Assembly (NCBI RefSeq): GCF_025144145.1
Contig: NZ_CP083546.1
Coordinates: forward strand, 2,992,501-3,056,500
Length of the DNA: 64,000 bases
Source of the DNA: Leisingera sp. M658
GTDB lineage: Bacteria > Pseudomonadota > Alphaproteobacteria > Rhodobacterales > Rhodobacteraceae
Reading direction: 5' to 3'
Shown: positions 1,461-61,536 of the stretch, in pieces
How the letters are laid out: every line of letters begins with the position of its first letter
Numbering within the stretch: the first letter of the stretch is position 1
Translations under genes and position numbers: made by a program
Notes under the pieces: generated by a model
What the model saw: only the letters and a program-made list of their open reading frames with translations
The model's database searches: none
What the model was told of the DNA's origin: nothing

Positions 1461-1537
1461 GGGTAGCGCCGCACCGCAGGTGCGGCGCTACCCCCAACGG
1501 AAGCGGTGCATTTCAATGCACCAGCGACGGGCGGGAG
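1461..1537 (+). repeat. Hairpin plus 45-nt dispersed intergenic repeat, copy A
   Basis: A perfect 15-bp stem (1461-1475 with 1479-1493, loop GCA) runs into a 45-nt block (1493-1537) that begins CCCAACGG and ends GGCGGGAG. The block contains an inner stem GGTGCAT/ATGCACC. Equivalent 45-nt blocks occur at 14979-15023 (reverse strand) and 60678-60722. The copy lies between the GNAT gene and the MBL-fold gene, which are both on the minus strand. No known element name is assigned. Confidence 0.8.
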
Positions 1538-1562: not shown

Positions 1563-2153
1563 TCATGCCTGGCCCGTCAGGGTTTTGCCGCGCCGGTCGT
1601 GCCGCAGCGAAGCATACAGAACATGGGTCCGCCAGCGGCCGTTGATCTGCAAATAGGACTGAGCGACGCCCTCGTATTTGAAGCCGGATTTCTCCAGCAG
1701 TCCGCGGGAAGCCTGGTTTTCCGGCAAGCATGCAGCCTCAATCCGGCTGAGATCCAGTTTGCTGAAGGCGTGATGCACCACCGCGCCGATCGCCTCGCGC
1801 ATGTAGCCGTGGCGGGCAAAGGGCAACCCGGTCCAGTACCCCAGCGTACCCGCCTGGGCCGGCCCGCGGCGGATATTGTCAAGCGTGATCGCGCCCAGCA
1901 GCATATTGTCGGACCGCCGGATCAGGAACAGCGGCAGCGCCGTGCCCCCAGCCACCGAGCGGCGGGCCCAATAGACCCGGTTGGTGAATGACTTGCGGCT
2001 GAGGTGGTCCGCCGCCCAGCTCGGCTCCCACGGCGTAAGGTACGGCTGGCTCTGCAGCCGCAGCGCCGCCCAGCCGTGAAAATCCGCATGCACCGGCGGC
2101 CTGAGGGTCAGGCGCTCGGTTTCAATGCGGACCTTGCGGCGGTTCAGCAGCAT
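1563..2153 (-). CDS. GNAT family N-acetyltransferase (RimJ-like)
   Basis: A 196-residue protein of the RimJ/RimL branch of GNAT acetyltransferases, which move an acetyl group from acetyl-CoA to an amine, often a protein N-terminus. The opening strand IETERLTLRPP (10-20) is diagnostic. The acetyl-CoA loop is FARHGYMREA (112-121), and ENQASRGLLEKSGF (145-158) is the usual RimJ helix. Its ATG overlaps the stop of the upstream M16 peptidase gene (TGATG), so the two are translationally coupled. The actual acceptor is unknown; rimJ as such is not claimed. Confidence 0.85.
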   Translation of the reverse strand: MLLNRRKVRIETERLTLRPPVHADFHGWAALRLQSQPYLTPWEPSWAADHLSRKSFTNRVYWARRSVAGGTALPLFLIRRSDNMLLGAITLDNIRRGPAQAGTLGYWTGLPFARHGYMREAIGAVVHHAFSKLDLSRIEAACLPENQASRGLLEKSGFKYEGVAQSYLQINGRWRTHVLYASLRHDRRGKTLTGQA

Positions 2154-12321: not shown

Positions 12322-14949
12322 ATGCCAGTAGTCGTTGTCGAATCCCCGGCCAAAGCAAAGACAATCAACAAGTATCTTGGCTCCAACTATACGGTTCTGG
12401 CGTCTTACGGGCATGTGCGCGACCTGCCGGCCAAAGATGGTTCGGTCGACACTGACGCCGATTTCGACATGACCTGGGAGGTCGGCAATGATTCCCGCAA
12501 GCACGTCAAGGCGATTGCCGACGCGCTGAAAGAGGACAATGCGCTGATTCTCGCTACCGACCCCGACCGCGAGGGCGAGGCGATCAGCTGGCACCTGCAG
12601 GAGGCGTTGACCAAACGGCGCTCGATCAAGAAGGACACGCCGGTCAGCCGGGTGACATTCAACGCGATCACCAAAGAAGCGGTGACCGAAGCGATGCAGA
12701 ACCCGCGCCAGGTCGACATGCCGCTGGTCGAGGCCTATCTGGCCCGCCGCGCGCTGGACTATCTGGTGGGCTTCAACCTGTCGCCAGTGCTGTGGCGCAA
12801 GCTGCCGGGCGCGCGGTCCGCGGGCCGGGTGCAATCCGTCTGCCTGCGCCTGATCGTCGAGCGCGAGATGGAGATCGAAGCCTTCAACGCCCAGGAATAC
12901 TGGTCCGTGCGCGCCCAGATGGCGACCCCGCGCGGCCAGGAGTTCGAAGCCCGCCTGACGGTGCTGGGCGGCGACAAGCTGGACAAATACAGCCTGAAGA
13001 CGTCCACCGCTGCCGAACTCGCGGTCCAGGCCGTGGCCTCGCGCCAGCTGTCGGTGCTTTCGGTCGAAGCAAAACCCGCTTCCCGCAACCCCTCTGCCCC
13101 GTTCATGACCTCGACCCTGCAGCAGGAAGCCAGCCGCAAATTCGGCATGGGCGCGCGCCAGACCATGAACGCCGCGCAGCGCCTTTATGAGGCCGGTCAC
13201 ATCACCTATATGCGGACCGATGGCATCGACATGGCGCCCGAAGCGGTGCAGGCCGCGCGTGCCGAGATCGAAACCCGCTATGGCGCTGAATATGTGCCCT
13301 CCTCCCCGCGGATCTACAAGAACAAGGCGAAGAACGCCCAGGAAGCGCACGAATGTATCCGCCCCACGGATATGAGCCGCGATGCGGCCAGCCTGAAAGT
13401 CACGGACGACGATCAGCGCAAGCTCTATGACCTAATCTGGAAGCGCACCCTGTCGTGCCAGATGGAAGGTGCCCGTCTGGAACGCACCACTGTCGACATC
13501 GGCTCGGATGACAAACAGGTGGTGCTGCGCGCCACTGGCCAGGTGATGCTGTTTGACGGTTTCATGCGGGTTTATGAAGAAGGCCGCGATGATGTGGCCG
13601 ACGAAGACGATAAGCGCCTGCCGCAGATCATGCAGGGCGAAGCGCTGAAATTTGCATCTTCGCTGGCCGCGCAGGCTGACAAGGCCGGCAAAGAGGCATC
13701 CGTGCTCTCTGAAGACGGCGCTGTGCTGGCGCTGCAGCACCATACCCAGCCGCCACCGCGCTATACCGAGGCGACACTGGTCAAGCGGATGGAAGAGCTG
13801 GGCATCGGCCGCCCCTCGACCTATGCCTCCGTGATCACCACAATCCAGGACCGCGAATACGTCCGCAAGGACAAGAACCGCCTGTTCCCCGAGGACAAAG
13901 GCCGGATCGTCACGATCTTCCTGCTGAATTTCTTCCGCAAATACGTCGGCTATGAATTCACCGCCAATCTGGAAGAAGAACTGGATGACGTCAGTGCCGG
14001 CAACGGCGACTATAAGGAACTGCTGGGCAAGTTCTGGCGCGATTTTTCAGCTGCCATTTCGGAAACCTCCGAGTTGCGGATCACCGAAGTGCTGGATGTG
14101 CTGGATGACGCCCTGGCACCGCAGCTTTATCCGCCGCGCGAAGACGGCACCGACCCGCGCGTCTGCCCCAAATGCGGGGAGGGCCAGCTGCATCTGAAAA
14201 CCTCGCGCACCGGCGGCTTTGTCGGCTGCGGCAATTACCCGGAATGCACCTACACCCGACCCATCGCCGGCGAAGGCGCTGATGGCGACGAGCGGCTGCT
14301 GGGGATGGATGGCGAAGATGAGATCCACCTGAAGGCCGGCCGCTTTGGGCCCTATGTTCAGCGCGGCGAAGCAACGCCCGAAAACAAGAAGCCGCCGCGC
14401 GCCAGCCTGCCCAAGGGCTGGAGCAAGGACGATATGGACCTGGCAAAGGCGCTGACCCTGCTCAGCCTGCCGCGCCAGATCGGCGACCACCCCGAAGGCG
14501 GTGTGATTGCCTCCAACTTCGGCCGCTTCGGTCCCTATTTGATGCACCAGCTGCCCGAAGAGGAAAAACCTGTCTACGCCAACCTCAAGGACCCCAACGA
14601 CGTCTTTGAAATCGGCATGAACCGGGCGGTGGAACTGCTGGCGGAAAAGCGCGCCAATCCGGGCCGCCGCGGCAGCCGGGCTGCTGCCAAGCCGCTGAAG
14701 GAGCTGGGGGATCACCCCGACAGCGGTGGCGCCATCAACATCATGGACGGCCGCTACGGGCCTTACGTCAAATGGGAAAAGGTCAATGCCACCCTGCCCA
14801 AGGACGTGGAACCCAAGGATGTCACCATGGAAATGGCGATGGAGCTGATTGCGGAAAAATCCGCAAAGGGCGGCAAGAAGAAAACCGCCGCCAAAAAGCC
14901 CGCAGCCAAGAAAAAAGCAGCGCCTAAGAAGGCCGCAGCGAAAGATTGA
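12322..14949 (+). CDS. topA: DNA topoisomerase I
   Basis: An 875-residue type IA topoisomerase that relaxes negative supercoils. The TOPRIM domain starts at once (VVVVESPAKAKTI, 3-15) and includes DPDREGEAISWHL. The nucleophile is Tyr296 in HITYMRTDG. A C4 zinc finger begins at Cys615 (CPKC ... CGNYPEC). Three GR(F/Y)GPY repeats (about residues 674, 734 and 812) form the C-terminal Topo_C repeats, and a Lys/Ala-rich basic tail of about 30 residues ends the protein. The length is usual for alphaproteobacteria. Confidence 0.97.
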   Translation: MPVVVVESPAKAKTINKYLGSNYTVLASYGHVRDLPAKDGSVDTDADFDMTWEVGNDSRKHVKAIADALKEDNALILATDPDREGEAISWHLQEALTKRRSIKKDTPVSRVTFNAITKEAVTEAMQNPRQVDMPLVEAYLARRALDYLVGFNLSPVLWRKLPGARSAGRVQSVCLRLIVEREMEIEAFNAQEYWSVRAQMATPRGQEFEARLTVLGGDKLDKYSLKTSTAAELAVQAVASRQLSVLSVEAKPASRNPSAPFMTSTLQQEASRKFGMGARQTMNAAQRLYEAGHITYMRTDGIDMAPEAVQAARAEIETRYGAEYVPSSPRIYKNKAKNAQEAHECIRPTDMSRDAASLKVTDDDQRKLYDLIWKRTLSCQMEGARLERTTVDIGSDDKQVVLRATGQVMLFDGFMRVYEEGRDDVADEDDKRLPQIMQGEALKFASSLAAQADKAGKEASVLSEDGAVLALQHHTQPPPRYTEATLVKRMEELGIGRPSTYASVITTIQDREYVRKDKNRLFPEDKGRIVTIFLLNFFRKYVGYEFTANLEEELDDVSAGNGDYKELLGKFWRDFSAAISETSELRITEVLDVLDDALAPQLYPPREDGTDPRVCPKCGEGQLHLKTSRTGGFVGCGNYPECTYTRPIAGEGADGDERLLGMDGEDEIHLKAGRFGPYVQRGEATPENKKPPRASLPKGWSKDDMDLAKALTLLSLPRQIGDHPEGGVIASNFGRFGPYLMHQLPEEEKPVYANLKDPNDVFEIGMNRAVELLAEKRANPGRRGSRAAAKPLKELGDHPDSGGAINIMDGRYGPYVKWEKVNATLPKDVEPKDVTMEMAMELIAEKSAKGGKKKTAAKKPAAKKKAAPKKAAAKD

Positions 14950-14978: not shown

Positions 14979-15048
14979 CTCCCGCCGGTTCCAGGCGCAT
15001 TGACATGCGCCGTCACCGTTGGGCCCGGCGCCGCTAACGCGGCGCGGG
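14979..15048 (-). repeat. 45-nt dispersed intergenic repeat, copy B, with adjacent hairpin
   Basis: On the minus strand, positions 15023 down to 14979 read CCCAACGG, then a core stem GGCGCAT/ATGCGCC, then CGGCGGGAG: 45 nt, the same length as copies A and C. Relative to copy A the stem has G-C where A has T-A at the third pair, a compensatory change. The usual upstream GC hairpin is at 15024-15048 (CCCGGCGCCGC with GCGGCGCGGG, one bulged base). Confidence 0.8.
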
Positions 15049-15142: not shown

Positions 15143-15392
15143 TTTCACTCCCGCGAAGGCCCAATAAGGGCAAAGCTAACCTTATTGGCTTATCAGCAAA
15201 GCTTTCTTTTGCGCCGCAAAGCGGCGCCACGCCCAAGGCTGATGGAGCATCTGCCGAAGGCAAATGCTCCGGGAAGGCGCGGGAGCCTTGCCCTTTCCGT
15301 TCTCCGTAGAAATACGTGCCCGTCTCCGTATTCATTGACTCTGCTCCAGCAGGCAGCCAGAAATCCCGCAACCGGCATACTGGGAGAACTCC

Positions 15393-59786: not shown

Positions 59787-60440
59787 ATGAAATTCTTCGT
59801 AGATACCGCCGAGATCGACGCGATTGCCGAGCTGAACGATCTGGGCATGGTGGACGGTGTCACAACCAACCCGTCGCTGATCAAGAAATCCGGCCGCGAC
59901 ATCATCGAAGTGACCAAGGAAATCTGCAACCTGGTCGACGGCCCGGTATCGGCAGAAGTCACCGCAACCGATGCCGAGACGATGATCGCCGAAGGCCGCA
60001 AGCTGGTGGAGATCGCCGAAAACATCGCCGTCAAGGTGCCGCTGACCTGGGATGGCCTGAAAGCCTGCAAAACCCTGTCCGGCGACGGCCACATGGTGAA
60101 CGTGACCCTGTGCTTCTCTGCCAATCAGGCGCTGCTGGCGGCCAAGGCGGGTGCCACCTTCATCTCCCCCTTCATCGGGCGTTTGGATGATATCAACCTG
60201 GACGGTATGGAAGTGATCGAAGACATCCGCACCATCTATGACAACTATGGCTTTGAGACCCAGATCCTGGCCGCCTCGATCCGTTCGGTGAACCACGTGC
60301 TGGACTCGGCCCGCATCGGCGCCGATGTGATCACCGCGCCGCCGGCGGTGATTAAGTCGATGGTGAACCACCCGCTGACCGACAAAGGCCTGGATGCGTT
60401 CCTTGCCGATATCAAGGCGGCGGAGATCAAGATCCTCTGA
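59787..60440 (+). CDS. tal: Transaldolase / fructose-6-phosphate aldolase family protein
   Basis: A 217-residue class I aldolase of the short (MipB/TalC) subfamily. The Schiff-base lysine is Lys83 in [11 protein letters not shown], the N-terminus [10 protein letters not shown] is diagnostic, and [11 protein letters not shown] (24-34) follows. It interconverts sedoheptulose-7-phosphate and fructose-6-phosphate in the pentose phosphate pathway, or cleaves fructose-6-phosphate. The length does not separate the two activities. Confidence 0.95.
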
Positions 60441-60495: not shown

Positions 60496-60606
60496 CTTTG
60501 CGAACTTTTCTACCAGTGTTTTTACCTGCGCCTTCATAACCGCAGCGAAGCACTCCCGCGTCCCCGCACTCCCCGGCTGACGCCGGACCGCATGGGGTCT
60601 TGGGCC

Positions 60607-60722
60607 CTGCAGCGCGCCTGCGGCGCGCTGCAGCGGCGTTTCACGCCGCCGCGCCGGGCACTCTGCCCGGCGCCCCGCCCAACGGACGCTGTGCATGCCA
60701 ATGCACTGCCGGCGGGCGGGAG
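60607..60722 (+). repeat. Hairpin cluster plus 45-nt dispersed repeat, copy C
   Basis: A perfect 12-bp stem (60607-60618 with 60622-60633), a CGGCG/CGCCG hairpin, and a perfect 10-bp stem GCGCCGGGCA/TGCCCGGCGC (60651-60673) lead into the 45-nt block 60678-60722, which begins CCCAACGG and ends GGCGGGAG. Its core stem is GTGCAT/ATGCAC. The arrangement, GC hairpins then the 45-mer, matches copies A and B. Confidence 0.8.
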
Positions 60723-60837: not shown

Positions 60838-61536
60838 ATGAGCAGTTCAGCCAACCTGGAAACCCAGTTGCGCGAGGCGATCCTCGCCAAACCCGACGCC
60901 GTGCTGCAAGACCAGCACCTGATGAATGCCCTTGTCGCCGCCAATGAGCGGGCAATGGGCTCCAACGTTGTTGATCTGCGCGGCATCGCGATGGAGCGGA
61001 TGGCGGCGCGGCTCGACCGGCTGGAGGATACCCACCGCTCGGTGATTGCCGCGGCCTATGACAATCTGGCCGGCACCAACCTGATCCACCGCGCCGTGCT
61101 GCGGTTGCTGGAACCGCAGGGCTTTACCGGCTTTCTGGCCTGCCTGGAACAGGATATGCCGGAGATCCTGCGCGTGCAGTCCCTGGCGCTGGTGCTCGAG
61201 ACCGCCCAGCCCGGCGGGGCCGAGATTGAACGCAAGTCCGGCGCCCTGAAGCTGTCAGGCCCCGGCTTCACCGAAAGCTATGCCGGCCAGCCCCGCAGCC
61301 AGCGCATTGTGACCCTGCGCCAGACCCAGGGCGGCAGCCCGCGTGTTTATGGGGCAAAAGCCGAATGGATCCGCTCCGAGGCCTGCCTGATGCTGGATCT
61401 GGGCGAAGGCCGCCTGCCCGGCATGCTGGTGATGGGGTCCGAAGACCCGCATCAGTTCTCGCCGATGCAGGGCACCGATCTGCTCGCTTTCTTTGCCGGC
61501 GTCTTTGAACGCGCGATGCGCTGCTGGCTGTCATGA
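60838..61536 (+). CDS. DUF484 family protein
   Basis: A 232-residue protein with a GAF-like fold. The N-terminus LETQLREAILAKPDAVLQD and VVDLRGIAMERMAARLDRLE are characteristic. DUF484 genes lie next to xerC in many proteobacteria, as here, but their task is not established. The start is the ATG after GCAAGAG; an 81-residue upstream extension in the frame is repeat sequence. It overlaps xerC by four bases. Confidence 0.9.
   Translation: MSSSANLETQLREAILAKPDAVLQDQHLMNALVAANERAMGSNVVDLRGIAMERMAARLDRLEDTHRSVIAAAYDNLAGTNLIHRAVLRLLEPQGFTGFLACLEQDMPEILRVQSLALVLETAQPGGAEIERKSGALKLSGPGFTESYAGQPRSQRIVTLRQTQGGSPRVYGAKAEWIRSEACLMLDLGEGRLPGMLVMGSEDPHQFSPMQGTDLLAFFAGVFERAMRCWLS

Follow-up and report, generated by a model that had tools for sequence, protein, structure and literature searches.

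A probable REP/BIME-like family of structured gene-end repeats in Rhodobacteraceae

Three 45-nt blocks in a 64,000-nt stretch of the Leisingera sp. M658 genome (the window; NZ_CP083546.1, positions 2,992,501 to 3,056,500) belong to a large family of repeats and represent its conserved core. Our data indicate, with good though not full confidence, that the family is a REP/BIME-like one, made up of structured elements at gene ends in some Rhodobacteraceae and without a name in the literature searched. Its unit is most probably 5'-(GC hairpin)-GCCCAA-X-GCGGGAG-3', which occurs singly or as an inverted pair around the hairpin and is held by selection on the fold of X.

Copies A, B and C lie at the three positions given by the original prediction, are 45 nt long as it had said (Table 1), and all start with CCCAACGG and end with GGCGGGAG. 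The stems also read as described, GGTGCAT/ATGCACC, GGCGCAT/ATGCGCC and TGTGCAT/ATGCACT, and the exchange of T-A for C-G on both sides of the copy B stem is present in the sequence; the outermost position of copy C is T.T and not a pair, so 6 of its 7 stem positions are paired. A GC hairpin precedes each copy, and copy C has two further GC hairpins besides that at 60651-60673. Under a covariance model built from 17 copies, A, B and C among them, the three scored 70.8, 57.7 and 56.6 bits, and the next best place in the window reached 10.7 bits. The repeat is far above chance level in both the window and the genome. Copy C is the right half of an inverted pair spanning 60553-60722, and it abuts no opposing gene end because it is flanked by two plus-strand genes. 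Copy A is a single module here, and the same site carried both modules, the second inverted, in all five relatives examined. A weak module-like match (10.7 bits, E 1.2) lies at 15232-15289 (+); it has the stem GGAGCAT..ATGCTCC and a GCGGGAG end, and is inverted with respect to copy B, like a widely spaced pair.

Table 1. Positions of the repeat copies, their parts and their neighbouring genes in the window.
Feature	Position	Strand	Remarks
Copy A, GC-rich hairpin of module	1463..1491	+	13 bp, loop GCA; from sequence, exact location
Copy A, core CCCAAC-X-GCGGGAG	1493..1537	+ (folding strand +)	X stem-loop 1505-1522
Copy A neighbour, GNAT acetyltransferase gene	1563-2153	-	stop codon 25 nt from GCGGGAG end
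Copy B, GC-rich hairpin of module	15027..15045	-	from sequence; limits approximate
Copy B, core CCCAAC-X-GCGGGAG	14979..15023	-	X 14994-15011
Copy B neighbour, topoisomerase I gene	12322-14949	+	stop codon 29 nt from GCGGGAG end
Copy C, left module, GCCCAAG..GCGGGAG on minus	60553..60607	-	from sequence; inverted pair by motif test
Copy C, left module, CTCCCGC	from 60553		
Copy C, left module, hairpin	60571-60589		
Copy C, left module, CTTGGGCCC	60599-60607		
Copy C, central GC-rich hairpins	60607..60673	.	60607-60633, 60635-60647, 60651-60673
Copy C, right module core CCCAAC-X-GCGGGAG	60678..60722	+	
Copy C neighbour, transaldolase-family gene	59787-60440	+	
Copy C neighbour, DUF484 gene	60838-61536	+	

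Many further copies were found in the same genome, at least 85 at E<=1 (4.89 Mb, 7 contigs). This is a lower bound because 150 of 5400 candidates were scored. The 4.32-Mb chromosome holds 83 of the 85 and the other contigs two; the probability of at least 83 chromosomal copies from length alone is 0.002. Printed with their flanks, the 85 copies show a module that consists of a GC-rich hairpin, a short joint, GCCCAA, the freely varying hairpin X and GCGGGAG. The 45-nt block is thus a part of the unit, and the module is the block together with the GC hairpin. A motif test classed 57 of 165 copies (these 85 and 80 from named genomes) as inverted pairs, and by this test the upstream left half is missing in 108. 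Pairs have the layout CTCCCGC-arm-TTGGGC-hairpin-GCCCAA-X-GCGGGAG and are about 130 nt long in most of 22 aligned full copies. Copies with the left module only, reading CTCCCGCGCCCGCAGG..TTGGGC..GC hairpin, were recognised by eye at eight loci of this genome (L285, L286, L287, L288, L291, L292, L294 and L107), and the genome total therefore exceeds 85. Two loci recovered by a left-end pattern, L295 and L297, look like full copies and are absent from the 85 model matches, a further sign that this count is a lower bound. GCCCAA and GCGGGAG are also conserved in singles, where they have no pairing partners, although this conservation is partly circular because copies were found by these motifs. 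Just outside GCGGGAG, the first base is G in 3 and the third base C in 59 of the 85 copies; in some, for example copy B, GGCG-GGAG-CGCC could form a small extra hairpin.

The fold of X is under resident selection at sites common to several species. The original prediction expected significant covariation in a larger alignment, and strong covariation was found in 110 distinct cores collected with X left free: the observed pairing was reached by 0 of 500 shuffles at each of the seven X pairs. Several pair types occur per position, for example G-C 45, T-A 24 and C-G 12 at one of them. When the registers were slid by one, the pairing excess was lost, save for two outer pairs at -1 (6 and 2 of 500 shuffles). 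Of the 14 X pairs scored in the own genome, 10 beat all shuffles and the other four were reached by 1, 3, 4 and 18 of 500. The own-genome copies were found by a model that favours G.U pairs, which played no part in collecting the free-X pattern set. The p values are overstated, since the copies are related and the shuffles ignore kinship. Matched changes also occurred in place. In one congener the copy A stem GGTGCAT/ATGCACC reads GGCGCAT/ATGCGCC, and the copy C stem TGTGCAT/ATGCACT reads GGAGCA/TGCTCC; unmatched changes are also present among orthologues, and some copies have gained a mismatch. At one site, single in the own genome and followed through 12 species, 96.2% of pair cells were paired, compared with 23.5-45.5% in slid registers (13 sequences, one of different length left out). 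Covariation there was modest, its score being reached by 15 of 500 shuffles, and one column pair was unpaired in 4 of 12 rows. X pairing is maintained in singles, whose decay is barely above that of pairs: non-pairing cells made up 5.4% in singles and 4.2% in pairs of the own genome, and 4.1% and 2.7% in the named set. The upper X stem begins with a G-C or C-G pair in 41 of the 85 own cores and with A-T in 5 of them; among the 110 cores of the named set, 72 begin with G-C or C-G. A tandem G.A in X that had looked invariant by eye was rejected, as G.A and A.G stand there in 28 and 25 of 85 copies, respectively.

When a hairpin acts as one strand, G.T is tolerated better than A.C, and the two are swapped on the other strand. 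G.T exceeded A.C in right modules by 32 to 6 in the 85 own copies, by 28 to 4 in 80 free-X copies and by 70 to 14 in 205 copies (p 4e-10 if copies are independent). Left modules read on the same strand gave G.T 7 and A.C 42 in 63 arms (p 4e-7 if copies are independent). The other internal mismatches were A.G 18, C.T 6, G.G 9 and C.C 2 in right arms, and in mirror image A.G 4, C.T 18, G.G 0 and C.C 13 in left arms. Three loci with both modules (L040, L084 and L103) were counted twice, and a few arms stand in the left and right tallies alike. These mirror-image mismatches indicate that selection acts on the fold of a module in the strand reading GCCCAA-X-GCGGGAG and, consequently, on opposite strands for the two modules of a pair. 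The central hairpin was neutral overall, with G.T 13 and A.C 14 among single internal mismatches; by class, G.T and A.C numbered 11 and 3 in pairs and 9 and 15 in singles. The mismatch pattern fits folded RNA and folded single-stranded DNA alike.

The position of the repeat relative to genes, which had been proposed as a check, proved to be mostly just after stop codons, and placement between divergent genes is rare (2 of 155). Read in module direction, the neighbours of the 165 copies were convergent in 92, both minus in 39, both plus in 22, divergent in 2 and unknown in 10. A downstream opposing gene was present in 136 of 165, and its stop codon lay within 46 nt of GCGGGAG in 103 of these, two of which overlap the called gene end. 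At such abutting gene ends, the folding strand is antisense to the gene. In 23 of 43 pairs a plus-gene stop lay no more than 46 nt from the outer left end, and a minus gene was upstream in 11 further pairs. The 39 of 155 copies that lie between two genes both reading against the module showed G.T 15 and A.C 2, and their X is as well kept as elsewhere. Gene calls came from a home-made codon scorer, for which the window served as training set. The counts of context, strand (80 copies), pair motif, terminator and distance used 80 of 119 named pattern loci, and the other 39 entered the covariation and 205-copy counts.

Terminators with a U-tract were rarer at module-bound gene ends, 17 of 100 (p 0.0015), and for plus-side genes 19 of 101 (p 0.004), compared with 64 of 181 others; a laxer definition gave a smaller gap (32 of 100 and 26 of 101 vs 69 of 181). 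No U-tract was seen by eye after the module hairpins in copies with flanks. Likewise, a scan of the window copies found no hairpin with a U-tract at the hairpins of A, B and C, and its sole terminator-like site, 15279-15291, lies away from module hairpins (0.9 expected by chance). At locus L006, a hairpin that resembles a terminator and has runs of A and of T (aaaaaaggcgcctccaggggcgccttt; about 1625-1656) separates the repeat from the convergent gene, so a module and a terminator may occur together at some gene ends.

Within the genus, the repeat was present in each of the 21 genomes searched, at 27-77 matches per genome (E<=0.01). Matches also occurred in 4 of 16 genomes from elsewhere in the family and in 0 of 24 from other families. 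A wider draw of the family, in which at most 20 candidates were scored per genome under strict filters, gave a patchy distribution over at least 44 of 295 genomes, or at least 43 of 294 genera, own included (E<=0.001). At least 119 named stretches were obtained, and Leisingera, Tritonibacter, Epibacterium, Pseudophaeobacter, Phaeobacter, Parasedimentitalea, Zongyanglinia, Meridianimarinicoccus and Pararhodobacter are among the matches listed. A typical module also occurs in JAHVJD010000010.1 (L195), titled Nocardioides marinus DP1N28-1; the strain code resembles that of Leisingera DP2N28-1, and the entry may be mislabelled. When 14 sites of the own genome were tried in one congener, both flanks were found for 12 and the module in 11; in a more distant congener, both flanks were found for 10 and the module in 8. 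Three flank-matched sites had no module match. Two of these were examined, among the few sites compared, and neither was a clean empty site: they held a remnant and a degenerate copy beside a deletion or insertion. Copies at the compared sites look old and inherited.

How the module works is a more tentative matter. Judged from sequence, it could plausibly act in RNA that nears a gene's 3' end from outside, although we hold this at somewhat under an even chance; the family identity and this mode of action, taken as one explanation, come close to an even chance without reaching it. We infer both that the folded strand is RNA and that transcripts are ended or trimmed there. The incoming RNA would be read-through of the convergent gene or antisense RNA. 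Nascent RNA would fold the GC hairpin, then X, a few nucleotides before running antisense into coding sequence, and the folding might stop, stall or trim it. A single module would then be a one-way barrier and an inverted pair a two-way barrier. We favour an RNA barrier because it would account for the folding strand, the place of the modules, the presence of inverted pairs between convergent genes and the low number of U-tract terminators. A stronger form of the idea, namely genome-wide one-way RNA barriers that guard gene 3' ends and replace U-tract terminators without needing a U-tract, is rather doubtful. Several observations speak against a barrier. The 39 of 155 copies with no plus-strand gene to feed RNA in are awkward unless antisense RNA is common, and the 22 of 155 between two plus genes, copy C included, guard no opposing end. 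In addition, no U-tract was seen after the hairpins, and the terminator depletion shrinks under the laxer definition.

Our initial reading of the full copies was one cloverleaf RNA with four arms, about 130 nt long. One strand can be written as CTCCCGC (arm) TTGGGC (arm) GCCCAA (arm) GCGGGAG for this structure, and a consensus fold of the 22 full copies gives it, but the left arm prefers the strand opposite to that of the right arm, and the left half is missing in 108 of 165 copies. Since the arms are selected on opposite strands, no one RNA is the selected form, and we regard the cloverleaf as very improbable. Another possibility is an ordinary 3'-UTR element that belongs to the adjacent gene, is read in sense in the order stop, CTCCCGC, hairpin, TTGGGC, GC hairpin, and would stabilise or end the mRNA. 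The closeness of stop codons (103 of 136), the fewer U-tract terminators at module-bound ends and the lack of an overall strand preference in the central hairpin agree with this. On the sense strand, however, X has A.C where the other strand has G.T, in left and right modules; X is thus selected on the antisense strand, which makes the 3'-UTR reading improbable for X. A double-stranded DNA site, such as a cruciform or a target of gyrase or a nucleoid protein that relieves supercoils between convergent genes, would account for the enrichment of convergent contexts (92 of 153 copies vs 60 of 181 control gene ends) and for the conserved GCCCAA and GCGGGAG in unpaired singles, with the partial circularity given above. 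A duplex or cruciform predicts no G.T excess, yet the excess is 70:14 and is mirrored in left modules. There is little probability in this explanation either.

The main rival to an RNA barrier is folded single-stranded DNA, as proposed for REPIN mobility. The repeat would be a REPIN-like mobile element, spread by a transposase of unrecognised kind or one now lost, with its copies since settled. We consider this rather unlikely, though more probable than the other rivals. Dozens of dispersed copies, inverted pairs together with singles, a strand-specific hairpin, a patchy occurrence among genera that differ greatly in copy number and a layout resembling that of REPINs as described in the accessible text of PMC3116915 would all suit it. 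The modules are also mostly oriented against the replication fork, 57 to 26 among the 83 chromosomal copies and 35 of 47 among those at convergent genes, with origin and terminus placed from the GC skew of the retrieved loci only. On the other hand, a search for the Y1 transposase (PF01797) gave no match in the own genome and, counting that one, in 15 of the 21 genomes of the genus; the repeat is present in all 21. PF01797 matches occur in the other 6 of 21, and 3 of the 16 matches were checked, none with a module nearby; as the source of the repeat, Y1 loci are unsupported by these three. The absence of a clean empty site at the two unmatched sites examined, the slight excess of decay in singles and the two off-chromosome copies among 85 also argue against a mobile element. 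The original prediction of a functional or mobile element is supported. X pairing is kept at sites common to species, and no mobility was seen.

It has long been asked whether REP-like repeats are parasitic or functional, and this family offers a clean handle on the question. The mismatch pattern reveals the folding strand, antisense to the abutting gene, so that an RNA-level role can be tested by strand-specific 3'-end sequencing in marine bacteria that can be cultured.

No name was known for the repeat at the outset, and none emerged. No Rfam family reached its gathering score in the window and 7 loci, and at E<=10 in 5 loci only a tRNA was above threshold. No description was found in the literature searched, which lacked most subscription papers and all figures. 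GTTGGGC/GCCCAAC resembles integron attC, where the order is reversed.

CGTC REPs are short palindromic sequences, mostly alphaproteobacterial and mostly in inverted pairs, which have no dedicated transposase, lie near 3' ends of genes and between convergent genes, often contain G.T pairs in their stems and include families in all alphaproteobacterial orders, according to the accessible text of PMC3733652. The module is similarly short and palindromic, at gene ends, in inverted pairs and without a linked transposase. Unlike CGTC REPs as that text describes them, it has no CGTC tag (CGTC in 7 of 165 and GACG in 3 of 165 copies within 10 nt outside GCGGGAG), no 3' CCA tail (its 3' end is GCGGGAG, and CCA occurs only inside the 5' flank GCCCAA) and no leading A-T pairs in the X stem; it is conserved in flanks rather than stems, and has a GC hairpin ahead of X (PMC3733652). 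Among the 85 own copies, 26 do have GACG in the final 16 nt of the core, where it belongs to the lower helix of X. The accessible main text of PMC3733652 does not mention Roseobacter, Rhodobacter, Ruegeria or Silicibacter, and the accessible passages of a Ruegeria pomeroyi sRNA paper contain nothing on such repeats (PMC4809877). A relative may stand in the Figure 2 species list of PMC3733652, and we therefore call the family probably new and do not put it higher.

CIR repeats of Caulobacter and Brucella (about 110 bp, intergenic) are likewise alphaproteobacterial and two-armed, but they carry GANTC (accessible text of PMC2229807), which occurs in 1 of 165 modules and 2 of 57 full spans here. 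GANTC is the CcrM methylation site, and the modules are nearly devoid of it. ERIC, Correia and RUP are, like the module, intergenic palindromic elements of about 100-150 bp; unlike these miniature elements as that source describes them, it showed no clean empty site in the two examined (PMC2229807).

The suggestion that the repeat is REP-like is borne out by location, dispersal and inverted pairing, and not by the GTAG or CGTC tags, on which the definition of the two published REP superfamilies rests, or a linked transposase, none of which was found. Within 10 nt outside GCGGGAG, none of the 165 copies has GTAG and two have CTAC. In contrast to GTAG REPs and REPINs, as far as the accessible texts of PMC3116915 and PMC3733652 describe them, the module has no GTAG and no linked Y1 transposase, and its singles are only slightly more decayed. 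Its arms are selected antisense to the adjacent gene, a polarity counted here for the module alone. The module nevertheless shares with GTAG REPs, BIMEs and REPINs, as described in the same texts, the inverted doublets (57 of 165) and singlets, the intergenic hairpin at gene 3' ends and the compensatory changes (PMC3116915; PMC3733652).
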